64,000 bases of DNA from Bacteroides caecimuris (GTDB lineage Bacteria; Bacteroidota; Bacteroidia; Bacteroidales; Bacteroidaceae), in contig NZ_CP015401.2 in NCBI RefSeq assembly GCF_001688725.2, positions 1,054,001-1,118,000 on the forward strand, given 5' to 3'. The notes under the pieces were generated by a model that made no database searches, had not been told where the DNA came from, and saw only the letters and a program-made list of their open reading frames with translations. Below are positions 2,944-52,167 of the stretch, piece after piece. The translations under genes were made by a program, and so were the position numbers. Position 1 is the stretch's first letter. Every line of letters starts with the position of its first letter.

Positions 2944-3048
2944 AGCCCTATAAACGATAACTATCGCTTATAAGGCTAAAAAGAAAGGCGTTCAAAATGA
3001 ACGCCTTAATAATCGTTGATGATATATGCTAATCGTTGGTAATTACCA
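2944..3048. other. Element-mnmE junction with palindromes and direct repeats
   Basis: Between the element genes and the mnmE stop lie: a 34-bp imperfect palindrome (2944-2977, core CGATAACTATCG); a hairpin (2985-3007); a direct repeat AATCGTTGRT at 3011 and 3031 (20-bp spacing); and a perfect palindrome TGGTAATTACCA (3037-3048) touching the mnmE stop. This is the kind of sequence expected at a tyrosine-recombinase attachment site, but the second att copy would lie outside the window. Confidence 0.4.
2985..3007 (-). terminator. Intrinsic terminator downstream of mnmE
   Basis: AAGGCGTTC (2985-2993) and GAACGCCTT (2999-3007) form a perfect 9-bp stem. On the minus strand it is followed by TTTCTTTTT-like sequence, so it would terminate mnmE transcription. 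Confidence 0.7.
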
Positions 3049-17716: not shown

Positions 17717-17727
17717 CAACCGCAAAA

Positions 17728-17825
17728 CGGGTAAGTCCTATACGGCCAGCTCCCTTCGAATCCTCCAGGGCTTGATCGCAGCAAAGGTAGTTGGTTGTAG
17801 CGGCGCGATATAGATAGCTTACCCA
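17728..17825 (+). ncRNA. ffs: Signal recognition particle RNA (4.5S)
   Basis: A ~98-nt element closed by GGGTAAG (17729-17735) and CTTACCC (17818-17824). The distal part carries the SRP-type asymmetric-loop motif: CAGGGCTTGATCGCAGCAAAGG is the counterpart of E. coli CAGG-loop-AGCAGCCAAGG. The opposing strands GTCCTATACGGCCAGC and TAGCGGCGCGATATAG extend the rod-like helix. The promoter box is directly upstream. It binds Ffh for co-translational membrane targeting. The call rests on closing stem, length and loop motif, not on a covariance search. Confidence 0.8.
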
Positions 17826-17828
17826 CCC

Positions 17829-17902
17829 GCCTCTTTAGCTCAGTTGGCCAGAGCACGTGATTTGTAATCTCGGGGTCGTTGGTTCGAATCCGACAAGAGG
17901 CT
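17829..17902 (+). tRNA. tRNA-Thr (anticodon TGT)
   Basis: Acceptor arms GCCTCTT (17829-17835) and AAGAGGC (17895-17901) pair perfectly, with discriminator T. The D arm is AGCTCAGTTGGCCAGAGCA and the T arm GTTGGTTCGAATCCGAC. The anticodon loop TTTGTAA gives TGT, decoding ACA. The anticodon stem CGTGA/TCTCG has one U-U mismatch at the middle pair. CCA is not encoded. It starts three bases after the SRP RNA. Confidence 0.97.
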
Positions 17903-49427: not shown

Positions 49428-49734
49428 GGGTTCTTGTCTATTAAGAGAAAACTTCCTTTGCATTAAGTGCAAACTTCTTTTCTCCTAATCCTAAAGTTCC
49501 TTTTGATTAATCATAAACTATAAATGCAAGTTCTGTTTTTATAAATGAAGCTTGCAATTATAAAAATGAAGCTTGCGTTTTTATAATCAAAGCTTGCATT
49601 TATAGTTTATAATTAGACAAAGATAAGTTTTCTATTTGATAAAAGGAAGTTTATAATTAATAAAATGGAAGTTATTTGTTAATAGGCTGGAGGTGAAGTA
49701 CTGCTTCTTATGAAGTTGTCGGTAGGTTGGTACG
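49428..49734. repeat. Phased ~22-bp AAGTT/AACTT repeat array with overall dyad symmetry
   Basis: AACTTCC-type units start at 49450, 49472 and 49494 (exactly 22 bp apart). AAGCTTG units lie at 49548, 49569 and 49590 (21 bp). AAGTT-type units lie at 49603, 49625, 49647, 49669 and 49713 (multiples of 22 bp). The 16-mers AAACTATAAATGCAAG (49515-49530) and CTTGCATTTATAGTTT (49593-49608) are perfect inverted copies. About the same centre (about 49561.5) AACTTCC at 49450 mirrors GGAAGTT at 49667-49673, and 49472 mirrors 49645-49651. The array starts 30 bp upstream of the HU-related start. Confidence 0.75.
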
Positions 49735-49888: not shown

Positions 49889-49896
49889 TACCTTTG
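49889..49896 (+). promoter_or_regulatory. -7 box TACCTTTG ahead of the structured RNA region
   Basis: A perfect TAnnTTTG match. The transcript would begin near 49903, include small hairpins (TACCT/AGGTA 49915-49930 and ACATCGC/GCGATGT 49973-49988) and run into RNA copy A at 50011. Confidence 0.6.
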
Positions 49897-50010
49897 CGGA
49901 CAATAAAATTCAAGTACCTGTTTATAGGTATCAGTGCAAATTAAAAATAATTGCTTATGGCATAAAAGTACAACATCGCTTGCGATGTCATATTTTCGAG
50001 TATAAATAAA

Positions 50011-50183
50011 GAAACGTTGTGTCTGTGTCTTGCTGTAATAAAGCGTAGGAAACTTTAACCTGATAACAAGATTGGCATGATGGTTCTCCACGTATATGCG
50101 TGGGGCTGCCGTCACCATTCCGTTATCAAGGGCTTTCCTACCGCCTTTTACAGAGGAGTGAACGATGTGTGGTTCCACGTTTC
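50011..50183 (+). ncRNA. Structured RNA element, copy A (173 nt)
   Basis: Closed by GAAACGTTG (50011-50019) with CCACGTTTC (50175-50183). Inner stems: GTCTTG (50027-50032) with CAAGAT (50067-50072), enclosing AAAG/CTTT; and CCACG (50088-50092) with CGTGG (50099-50103). TTCTCC (50084-50089) could also pair with the GAGGAG near 50153-50158. The same architecture, with compensatory changes, is found 291 bp downstream in copy B. No known riboswitch or Rfam family is recognised by eye. Orientation is inferred from the promoter box and the downstream gene. Confidence 0.65.
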
Positions 50184-50189
50184 TGTTTC

Positions 50190-50264
50190 TTTGCATCTGA
50201 CTTTAAAGTATTTGACCTCAAAGAATGTAGCTCCAAAGTGTTTGACCTCAAAATTGCGTGTGAA
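50190..50264. repeat. 15-bp tandem repeats, consensus AAAGTRTTTGACCTC
   Basis: Units at 50205 (AAAGTATTTGACCTC), 50220 (AAAGAATGTAGCTCC), 50235 (AAAGTGTTTGACCTC) and 50250 (AAAATTGCG...), with a diverged unit at 50190. The period is exactly 15 bp. In one plus frame it encodes repeats of K-V-F-D-L, but no convincing start exists. The array separates RNA copies A and B. Confidence 0.65.
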
Positions 50265-50301
50265 AATGTAAATTAAGAATATCATATAATCATTGTTCAA
50301 A

Positions 50302-50474
50302 GAAACGTTGTGTCTTCATCTTGCTGTAATAAAGCGTAGGAAACTTTAAAACTGATAACAGGATTTTGGCATGATAGTTCTCCGTGTTGTTTGCATGGTG
50401 GTGCTGTCTCCATTTTCGAGTTAAGACATACAGTAGTCTAATCAAGGAGATGTAAGCATATAGTTCCACGTTTC
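50302..50474 (+). ncRNA. Structured RNA element, copy B (173 nt)
   Basis: Same length and plan as copy A: closing stem GAAACGTTG (50302-50310) with CCACGTTTC (50466-50474); ATCTTG (50318-50323) with CAGGAT (50359-50364); AAAG/CTTT; CCGTG (50382-50386) with CATGG (50394-50398). Relative to copy A the stems change on both sides or via G-T pairs, which supports a conserved RNA fold. It ends 53 nt before the ATG of the PAP2 gene, so it may be a leader element of that mRNA or a separate small RNA. Confidence 0.65.
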
Positions 50475-50527
50475 AATATCAATCTAAAATTCAGCCGAAC
50501 GGGAACTGGTGAGGCTAAGCAAACTAC

Positions 50528-51349
50528 ATGGATGTTAAAAATTTAATTTTAGCAGTTGCCCTGACAGTAACTCTGCCAATGAAAACGCATGGGCAACAGA
50601 TGGGGCGGGATTCTTTATCCGTAAGCGACAGTGTTCTATCCGTAAATAACAGGATTCTATCCGTAAGCGATGGAACTCCGGAAAATTACCGGTTCGAGTG
50701 GCGGCAAACGATTCTGCCTGCGTCTTTAATTGGTGTTGGTGCGGTTGCGCTTGCTCCGGGTTTCATTCGGAACGGCAGTCGTAGCGTCACGAACAGCGTG
50801 ATTGACATACGGGGAAAGAACAATCGGCTTGAATGGGACGATTATATCCAATATCTACCCGTTGCCAGTTCTTTAATGCTGGGCTGTACGGGTGTCAAGG
50901 CGAAACATTCATTCCGGGATAGGGCTTTTATTGTCGCTACTTCTTATGCGACATTAGCTGTTCTTACGAACGTTCCAAAATTCTGCATTGATGAGAAAAG
51001 ACCGGAATTTGCAGGACACAATTCTTTTCCTTCGGGGCATACGGCAACCGTTTTCATGGGTGCGGAATTGATTCGGATAGAATACGGTAGCTGGTATGGC
51101 ATCGGTGCTTATACCATCGCGACCGGAGTAGGGTTCATGCGGATGTACAACGGAAGACACTGGCTTCATGATGTAGTGGCAGGTGCAGGTGTAGGGATAT
51201 TGAGTGCGCGGGTTGGCGAATGGAGTTGTCAGTTGTGGCAAAAAATCTTCCAGAAGAAGGGAAGAAAGGAAAACAACCTTGTTTTCACTCCGGTAGCCTC
51301 CCCGGTGAATGGTGGGTATTACGGTTTCACTATGGGGTGTTGCTTTTAG
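50528..51349 (+). CDS. PAP2 family phosphatase (lipid A 1-phosphatase-like)
   Basis: 273 residues. The N-terminal signal peptide (LILAVALTVTLPMKTHGQQ) is followed by a 3-copy 7-residue repeat (LSVSDSV, LSVNNRI, LSVSDGT), then membrane segments and the PAP2 active site: DEKRPEFAGHNSFPSGHTAT (about 152-171) and YNGRHWLHDVVAGAGVG (about 202-218), i.e. the KxxxxxxRP, PSGH and SRxxxxxHxxxD-type motifs. It would dephosphorylate a lipid phosphate such as lipid A or undecaprenyl pyrophosphate at the outer face of the inner membrane. It lies downstream of two structured RNA elements. Confidence 0.88.
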   Translation: MDVKNLILAVALTVTLPMKTHGQQMGRDSLSVSDSVLSVNNRILSVSDGTPENYRFEWRQTILPASLIGVGAVALAPGFIRNGSRSVTNSVIDIRGKNNRLEWDDYIQYLPVASSLMLGCTGVKAKHSFRDRAFIVATSYATLAVLTNVPKFCIDEKRPEFAGHNSFPSGHTATVFMGAELIRIEYGSWYGIGAYTIATGVGFMRMYNGRHWLHDVVAGAGVGILSARVGEWSCQLWQKIFQKKGRKENNLVFTPVASPVNGGYYGFTMGCCF

Positions 51350-51597: not shown

Positions 51598-51631
51598 AAG
51601 TAGGATATTTAATTTTATTTTCATAGTTTTG
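51598..51631 (+). promoter_or_regulatory. Shared 25-nt element and -7 box TAGTTTTG
   Basis: 51598-51622 is identical to 49844-49868. The -7 box TAGTTTTG lies at 51624-51631. A transcript would start near 51637 with a hairpin CCTCA/TGAGG (about 51652-51666) and AAAGGCGTTTA/TAAACGCTTT (about 51700-51722). Confidence 0.55.
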
Positions 51632-51849
51632 CAATGTTTCTCACGCCGATACCTCAATTCGTGAGGTTAGGGTGGTGCGGGAGATGTATTATATAAAGAA
51701 AGGCGTTTACTAAACGCTTTGTCTTTGACACTTCGAAACTTCGCAACTTTTGAAAACTTCGTCAAAAAGCAAAGCAGCAGTAGATGTTTACGGGATATGT
51801 TTTAATCTTTTGCAAATTTGTATGTTTACACGTTTGTAAAAATGCTATA

Positions 51850-51953
51850 CATATCGGCGTGGGTTTCTGCGTTGCTTGTTCTGACGAAGTTGGGCAATGC
51901 GAAGGCCTTGATGCGTGGGACAAGTAACAGGTACAGATCCCCGCGCTTTTTTG
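51850..51953 (+). ncRNA. Structured non-coding RNA candidate with terminator-like end
   Basis: GCGTGGG (51857-51863) pairs with CCCCGCG (51939-51945) and encloses two hairpins: GCGTTGC/GCAATGC (51869-51875 and 51894-51900) and CTTG/CAAG (51907-51910 and 51921-51924). Six T follow at 51947-51952, as in an intrinsic terminator. A 41-codon frame covers the same DNA (51842-51967), but the base-paired layout suggests RNA. The transcript may start near 51637. No known family is recognised by eye. Confidence 0.5.
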
Positions 51954-51978: not shown

Positions 51979-52167
51979 ATGCACTGGGAAGATGATTTTG
52001 AGAATTTGTCACTAAAGGATCAAAAGGCTATGGGGATAGGAATTTTTACTGGTAGTTTGATTGGGGTACGATATGTTACTCACGTTGAAGTAGATGGAGG
52101 AGCGTTAGTGTATGATGAAATAGAAGATTTTTCAGGTAACTATGAATATATTGATGTGGACATGTAG
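51979..52167 (+). CDS. Small hypothetical protein
   Basis: 62 residues, acidic (MHWEDDFENLSLKDQKAMGI, ending YIDVDM). The start follows TGGGGGGATT, a possible ribosome site. No family is recognised. It is in AT-rich DNA with the next orphan gene 52 bp downstream on the same strand, possibly a unit. Confidence 0.45.
   Translation: MHWEDDFENLSLKDQKAMGIGIFTGSLIGVRYVTHVEVDGGALVYDEIEDFSGNYEYIDVDM

Follow-up and report, generated by a model that had tools for sequence, protein, structure and literature searches.

Second-messenger riboswitches, for example GEMM (c-di-GMP), occur in several copies per genome before unrelated genes, form tandems and adopt a complex fold in the 5′-UTR. The RNA leader described here resembles GEMM in its multiple copies before unrelated genes, its tandems and its complex 5′-UTR fold; unlike GEMM, it has a near-constant core-to-ATG distance, a platform made of a hairpin (P10) and a pseudoknot (PK3), and no Rfam 15 model at threshold. 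The available part of PMC11697453 describes FopS of B. thetaiotaomicron, a group of paralogous sRNAs of about 65–70 nt, in which the 5′ part is single-stranded and a hairpin serves as terminator. Like FopS, the leader is a multicopy RNA family in Bacteroidaceae. Assignment to FopS or to a short intergenic sRNA was rejected, as the core measures 163–176 nt and a T-run of at least 6 is present in just 4 of 98 leaders. The accessible portion of PMC2864571 reports Bacteroidales-1, Bacteroides-1, Flavo-1 and 6S-Flavo, Rfam-numbered structured RNAs found by comparative analysis in the same phylum, and none of these four was detected when members were scanned with cmscan. Bacteroides-2 and GUCCY-hairpin have no Rfam numbers in the table of that portion, and the cmscan comparison covered the four numbered motifs. 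Fremin and Bhatt (2021) gave 3161 unnamed models from the human microbiome, many of them from Bacteroidetes, and pieces of the leader family could be among them, as far as the available text of PMC8040213 allows a comparison.

The window, that is, the whole 64,000-nt stretch of DNA analysed, carries two copies of this RNA, and no Rfam 15 family reached the gathering score on either copy in the scan that had been proposed for them. At E up to 10, the segment 49900–50600 gave three Rfam matches, all far below gathering; DdR6 overlaps copy A (16.6 of 90 bits, E 5.7) and STnc550 touches the last two bases of copy B (14.8 of 48 bits, E 0.38), and all three were taken as chance matches. When 34 member loci were compared with Rfam 15 at E up to 1, no match fell on a member itself. 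The leader is undescribed in Rfam 15 and in the open-access full texts covered; no description of it occurs in the available parts of PMC11697453, PMC7366714, PMC8040213 and PMC2864571. It belongs to a big and apparently unnamed RNA leader family of Bacteroidales. The absence of an Rfam match at threshold and the strong covariation described below fit the sequence-only reading, in which the copies were called an uncharacterised structured RNA.

Copies A and B in the window

Copy A (50011–50183) and copy B (50302–50474) lie on the plus strand, are 173 nt each, as had been noted, and are separated by a spacer of 118 nt. The closing stem GAAACGT/ACGTTTC is present in both. The pairing-preserving differences previously seen between them were also found as described: CCACG/CGTGG versus CCGTG/CATGG belongs to helix P6, and GTCTTG/CAAGAT versus ATCTTG/CAGGAT to the pseudoknot PK1. 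The 5′ thirds are nearly identical (94% over the first 51 nt, counted from 50008 and 50299). The earlier view that the inner stems are common to both copies holds for P5, most of P6 and PK1; the 3′ halves of P2–P4 have diverged in B. The two copies are thus not equivalent: A is a full core lacking P10, and B has P10 together with diverged P2–P4.

Copy A, with 3 nt added on each side, folded at −65.4 kcal/mol (z −4.9; 0 of 200 shuffles as low) and scored 165.5 bits with covariance model R1. Guided by the pair statistics of its homologues, its helices were placed on the plus strand at 50011–50017/50177–50183 (P1), 50033–50038/50148–50153 (P2), 50043–50052/50134–50144 (P3), 50062–50067/50122–50127 (P4), 50078–50084/50108–50114 (P5) and 50086–50093/50098–50105 (P6), with PK1 at 50027–50032/50067–50072. 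Neither P10 nor an ORF was found directly 3′ of copy A. Copy B folded at −44.7 kcal/mol (z −2.2; 3 of 200), a moderate signal weaker than that of A, and scored 81.2 bits with R1 and 98.9 bits with model R2. From the segment identities, B retains P1, P5, most of P6, PK1 and the 5′ strand of P2/P3. Over P3b and P2b, 8 of 21 columns are identical between the two window copies, and non-standard pairs occupy 3 of 7 positions in P3, 2 of 5 in P4 and one in P6 of window B. In a model-fitted alignment of six B-type rows, 27 of 33 cells in P3 and 18 of 29 in P4 are still paired.

The 3′ end of copy B lies 53 nt upstream of the ATG at 50528, as had been stated, and this ATG opens a 273-aa ORF for a PAP2-family phosphatase (50528–51349, plus strand; Pfam PF01569, E 1.1e-14). 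Between them, the predicted P10 hairpin of B (AGCC/GGCU; 50493–50516, plus strand), placed by the sequence and by the homologue tests of P10 and PK3, presents the loop GGGAACUG at 50501–50508, 20 nt before the ATG. This loop can pair with UAGUUCC at 50461–50467 (plus strand), the 5′ strand of PK3.

Upstream of core A, a Bacteroides-type −7 promoter motif of the form TAnnTTTG, TACCTTTG, was read from the sequence at 49889–49896 (plus strand). It sits 114 nt before the core, farther than in most homologues (40–66 nt). Flank comparison also revealed GCTTATGGCATAAA at 49953–49966 (plus strand), which the tandem loci conserve apart from minor changes. Its end is 44 nt from core A, a distance at which the promoter motif stands in other members, and it may possibly be an alternative promoter. 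A P0-like hairpin, ACATCGC-TT-GCGATGT, follows at 49973–49988 (plus strand). AT-rich direct and inverted repeats with a period of 21–22 nt occupy window positions 49502–49680, upstream of the leader.

Core covariation and leader layout

In total, 139 members were collected, 133 of them unique, with a core length of 143–193 nt (median 169, 5th–95th percentile 163–176; the shortest, 143 nt, is cut off by a contig end). Model R1 was built on 16 full-type cores (alignment A3), and alignment A5 brought together 66 matches, which give 63 distinct rows; their loci are not among these 16 training rows, but they were aligned to R1's own structure. The results showed that 98.5% of A5 cells are paired, compared with 86.7% in shuffles and 31–54% when the partners were slid. 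Both sides change in 14 of 32 pairs, located in P1, P3, P4 and P5; in P6, A5 has one-sided changes only, and two-sided ones appear in the smaller set A2. As R1 did not contain P2, this helix was tested by re-dealing partners between members, a procedure applied to P4 and P1 as well and in which control segments gave no excess. The members' own partners scored 8.54 versus 4.77 for re-dealt ones in P2 (sd 0.11, 0 of 2000, n = 133), 8.72 versus 5.76 in P4 (sd 0.10, 0 of 2000, n = 133) and 8.08 versus 7.74 in P1 (sd 0.05), values whose significance is overstated and whose effect sizes are inflated because the permutations ignore phylogeny. Taken together, the predicted helices P1–P6 are supported by covariation.

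The strands of PK1 (TCTTG/CAAGA) are nearly invariant across members, and permutation over all 133 rows did not secure the pairing statistically. Permutation of the 24 variants of these strands gave 3.23 versus 3.37, and that of 15 variants gave 5.07 versus 4.60, with 536 of 5000 permutations as high. Compensation is seen in single divergent members (TATCCC/GGGATA in L097, TTCCTG/CAGGAG in L067 and ACTCT/AGAGT in L090), and PK1 is probably an internal pseudoknot of the core. The contact between TTCTCC and a GGAG near the 3′ end, which had been suggested from copies A and B, came out weakly positive (4.07 versus 3.91, sd 0.06, 23 of 5000, 133 members; 4.85 versus 4.76, 61 of 2000 as high, in a wider version), so that this putative pairing is at best weakly supported. 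A proposed competing hairpin, P8, showed no covariation in a targeted test (6.72 versus 6.74) and was positive in a cruder self-test (7.10 versus 6.64). A local hairpin, P1a, makes use of a strand that P1 also uses (5.62 versus 5.31, sd 0.04). Outside the five modelled helices, 24 A5 columns are conserved at 95% or more, some of them within the PK1 strands.

The core is part of a larger unit. Typically, a TAnnTT[TC]G promoter motif is followed after about 45 nt by the core of about 170 nt and, after about 52 nt more, by the ATG, giving a leader of about 265 nt. The motif ends 40–66 nt before the core in 112 of the 132 members with enough upstream sequence, against 3.5 expected from shuffled flanks. 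Just after it lies the hairpin P0 (6.73 versus 5.78 re-dealt, sd 0.12, n = 112). An ORF, defined as the first frame that opens with ATG and has 60 codons or more (30 or more if it runs off the stretch), begins within 450 nt of the core in 126 of 133 members, and in 96 of these 126 the ATG lies 40–65 nt after the core (median 52).

P10 and PK3 were analysed in the 98 members with a core-to-ATG gap of 40–75 nt. The loop of P10, with the consensus GGAACUG, faces a CAGUUCC just before the 3′ strand of P1, and pairing of the two constitutes PK3. Among the 42 members that depart from this consensus, PK3 scored 5.20 versus 3.59 (sd 0.18, 0 of 20000), although 11 of them lack a good partner, scoring below 4. 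Where the score is 5 or more (69 of 98 members), the PK3 partner ends a median of 20 nt before the ATG. The P10 stem covaries (6.40 versus 4.56, sd 0.15, 0 of 2000) in the 76 members tested, the loop being too poor for the test in the other 22 of the 98. By eye, the PK3 of L179, a member from the source genome, spans 8 bp and differs strongly in sequence (GACTCCAC/GTGGAGTC). A U tract seldom comes after P10, and this scarcity of T-runs makes an intrinsic terminator unlikely and points to translational control. The leader is a conserved structured domain in what the positions of promoter motif and ATG indicate to be a 5′-UTR, and P10/PK3, conserved about 20 nt before the ATG, is a candidate expression platform. 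P0, lying upstream, and P10, lying downstream with PK3 reaching back into the core, fall outside the bounds first assigned to the copies.

Distribution and downstream genes

With copy A as the BLASTn query, matches were obtained in 14 of 148 related genomes, the source genome among them, and an exact 28-mer retrieved five stretches from records labelled Bacteroides, Leyella and Prevotella. The covariance-model search that had been proposed as a check extended this range to many Bacteroidales genomes. At E ≤ 0.001, with strict filters and few candidates scored per genome, R1 detected the RNA in 86 of the 149 genomes drawn from the genus (up to 11 matches in one genome), in 56 of the 89 genus genomes with at least 90% completeness and at most 5% contamination, and in 60 of the 295 drawn from the order. 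In a phylum-wide draw, R2 matched 8 of 296 genomes at E ≤ 1e-4, including the source genome; the other seven belong to the same class and carry divergent copies. At these seven places, an ATG follows at 44–56 nt in four and a 54-codon frame at 94 nt in one, with none within 300 nt in two. Within the source genome, R1 gave seven matches at E up to 10 and R2 nine at E up to 1, the two sets overlapping. Two divergent short members in it (G000:C1:1472033–1472182 and 946959–947109) are near-identical, and each lies 33 nt before one of two related ORFs (MGKVQILAVLTMDGC...).

A plasmid search with a consensus-like member gave 7 records, from Phocaeicola, Parabacteroides and Bacteroides together with a 1.77-Mb Prevotella record filed as a plasmid; copy A as the query matched none. 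The phage search gave one record with one member as the query and none with another. Two viral contigs carry a member; L099 and L100 were accepted as members, and L028–L033 and L101–L103, which had viral 16-mer matches, were rejected. L025 is a copy that has lost its 3′ half and L182 a truncated copy. L022 (positions 1500–1567; G024:C31:12149–12215) carries 67 nt of copy A's 3′ half as a stand-alone fragment with 94% identity; its contig also bears the tandem, some 20 kb away.

The 99 different downstream proteins fall into 48 Pfam families (E ≤ 1e-4), and among the 25 families shown in the tally none occurs in more than five members, the five PAP2 cases being the tandem loci. By a crude rule, a lipobox with a hydrophobic start is found in 36 of 101 proteins and a hydrophobic start alone in 35 more. 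Genes behind the leader include those for lipoprotein, zinc-ribbon, small regulator and DUF4433 proteins and an annotated beta-lactamase. On annotated plasmids, one member lies 52 nt before a hypothetical gene and another, lacking a visible P10, 19 nt before a DUF4433 gene. The member at 3001–3166 of L184 (Bacteroides uniformis plasmid pBUN1), in which P10 and PK3 are seen by eye, lies 50 nt upstream of a gene with the annotation MUN-1 class A beta-lactamase.

Nine of the 133 members (L064, L042, L044, L071, L007 on the minus strand, L119, L132, L142 and L147) form a type II, which lacks P10 and an ORF at about 52 nt. Their P1′ ends in CTTG, followed by AACC, AGCC or ACCC, and a TGATACC...AGTTCCC-like stretch stands about 70 nt on in the 3′ domain of eight of the nine (GTGACC in L064). 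In L071 and L007, the type II member lies upstream of what we take to be an AbiEi-like gene with its own TATCTTTG motif; in L147, it lies near a gene that is presumably AAA-ATPase-like.

Proposed function and the tandem before PAP2

The fixed promoter–core–ATG geometry, the pseudoknot near the start codon and the lack of a terminator argue for translational control in cis, and we regard it as fairly probable, at about 0.62, that the copies are cis-acting, riboswitch-like leaders gating translation through P10/PK3. In a typical member, the promoter motif stands just before P0, and the leader would then fold into the core, made up of the closing helix P1, a P2–P3–P4 rod, a P5–P6 hairpin and probably PK1, and afterwards into P10, the GGAACUG loop of which would reach back to pair with the CAGUUCC that adjoins the 3′ strand of P1. 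The core may act as a sensor for a single signal in wide use in the cell, a small molecule or second messenger being the likeliest kind, and the state of the core would decide whether PK3 and P10 form, which would change ribosome access to the start codon. By analogy with second-messenger riboswitches, the placement of numerous copies ahead of unrelated genes suggests a single general signal, although the genes point to no particular ligand. In most metabolite riboswitches, the downstream genes share a pathway. Here they share none (48 Pfam families for 99 proteins), which counts against the gating model, as does type II (9 of 133), with neither P10 nor a nearby ORF.

The unrelated downstream genes would suit a global regulator, and a leader that binds a regulatory protein, so that one translational repressor or activator controls the whole regulon, is also favoured by the 24 conserved A5 columns outside the five modelled helices; however, the sequences of P2, P4 and P10 vary widely while their pairing is kept, and we consider this reading unlikely, if credible. 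A module that senses nothing and supports constitutive expression by stabilising the mRNA or recruiting ribosomes is consistent with the fixed layout and with unrelated genes, some of them on plasmids. Such a module seems rather improbable, as its complexity would go beyond the needs of a simple stabiliser and the use of the same strand by P1 and P1a hints at switching.

The sequence-only reading had left open whether the two copies are a tandem cis-regulator or a pair of small RNAs. The near-constant ATG distance favours the cis-regulator, and the small-RNA pair finds no support for the window copies, since B shares with many other members its position some 52 nt upstream of an ATG. Trans-acting small RNAs as an explanation for the family are very improbable with 96 of the 126 ORF-bearing members, B included, placed 40–65 nt before an ATG, although the type II members, with their different 3′ domain and no ORF at about 52 nt, could be such RNAs. 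That the element acts as DNA, as a recombination site or cassette end, is suggested by a conserved upstream segment with unrelated cargo behind it and is barely credible in view of the covarying stems, the pseudoknot and the promoter motif upstream on the same strand. An integron-like cassette site was likewise rejected: the 78 three-prime flanks after the ORF (up to 200 nt, 9-mer counts) share no element, save AT-rich start contexts (TATGAAAAA in 11) and a few 9-mers in 4–5.

Under the preferred reading of riboswitch-like leaders, the earlier interpretation stands in part: it had seen the core alone, and the larger leader consists of promoter, P0, core and P10/PK3. With the leader in over half of the gut-genus genomes sampled (86/149) and as many as 11 copies found in a single one, a sizeable regulon would have gone unrecognised in a major human-microbiome group, and the fixed layout of the leader makes it testable by reporter fusions. 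According to the available part of PMC3155529, bacteria of this group mostly lack Shine–Dalgarno sites, and the leader would show structured control of translation where such sites are mostly absent.

The A–B pair before PAP2 was found in the window, in L023 (Leyella lascolaii), in L007/L024 (a Bacteroides MAG, counted as one contig on the basis of length and position) and in L026 and L027 (Prevotella MAGs). The features are divided between the copies, A contributing the P0-like hairpin and the full core, and B contributing P10, PK3 and the ATG, and the two may form one composite PAP2 leader, with A as the core lacking P10 and B as the bearer of P10 and the start codon. In each tandem locus, A and B agree at 19–20 of 20 columns in the 5′ strand of P2–P3 and at just 8–10 of 21 in the matching 3′ strand; identity in this 3′ strand is 53% among B copies and 100% among A copies. 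With an A-type 5′ strand retained in B, copy A's 3′ strand would have two equally good partners, its own 5′ strand and that of B; the predicted duplex with B reaches −17.6 to −19.3 kcal/mol in the five loci, compared with −17.7 for the pairing within A. One hypothesis is that strand exchange couples the two copies. In minimum-energy folds of the whole tandem, the 3′ strand of A paired with B in none of the five loci and within A in four (12–16 pairs), pairing with neither in L007, and these folds count against strand exchange as the ground state; possibly the 5′ strand of B is conserved for another reason. A broader and more tentative reading, in which the leaders are an undescribed riboswitch class of Bacteroidia answering one global signal, with a mostly exported and partly mobile regulon and tandem cores that share strands in two coupled states, appears to us possible, yet somewhat doubtful.

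A probable third, divergent member lies downstream at 51711–51949 (about 51700–51949; plus strand; R2 22.0 bits, fold z −4.4), with an E-value of 0.0032 over the window that is to be read as rough. It has long P3/P4-like stems (CTTCGCA/TGCGAAG and AACTTCGTCA/TGACGAAGTT), and P10/PK3 was not found there. Its promoter motif, TAGTTTTG, was read at 51624–51631 (plus strand). A 62-aa ORF from the ORF list (51979–52167, plus strand) begins 29 nt after this third leader and gave no Pfam match at E 0.001. Elsewhere in the window, positions 17722–17902 carry a Bacteroidales small SRP RNA with a tRNA immediately after it.
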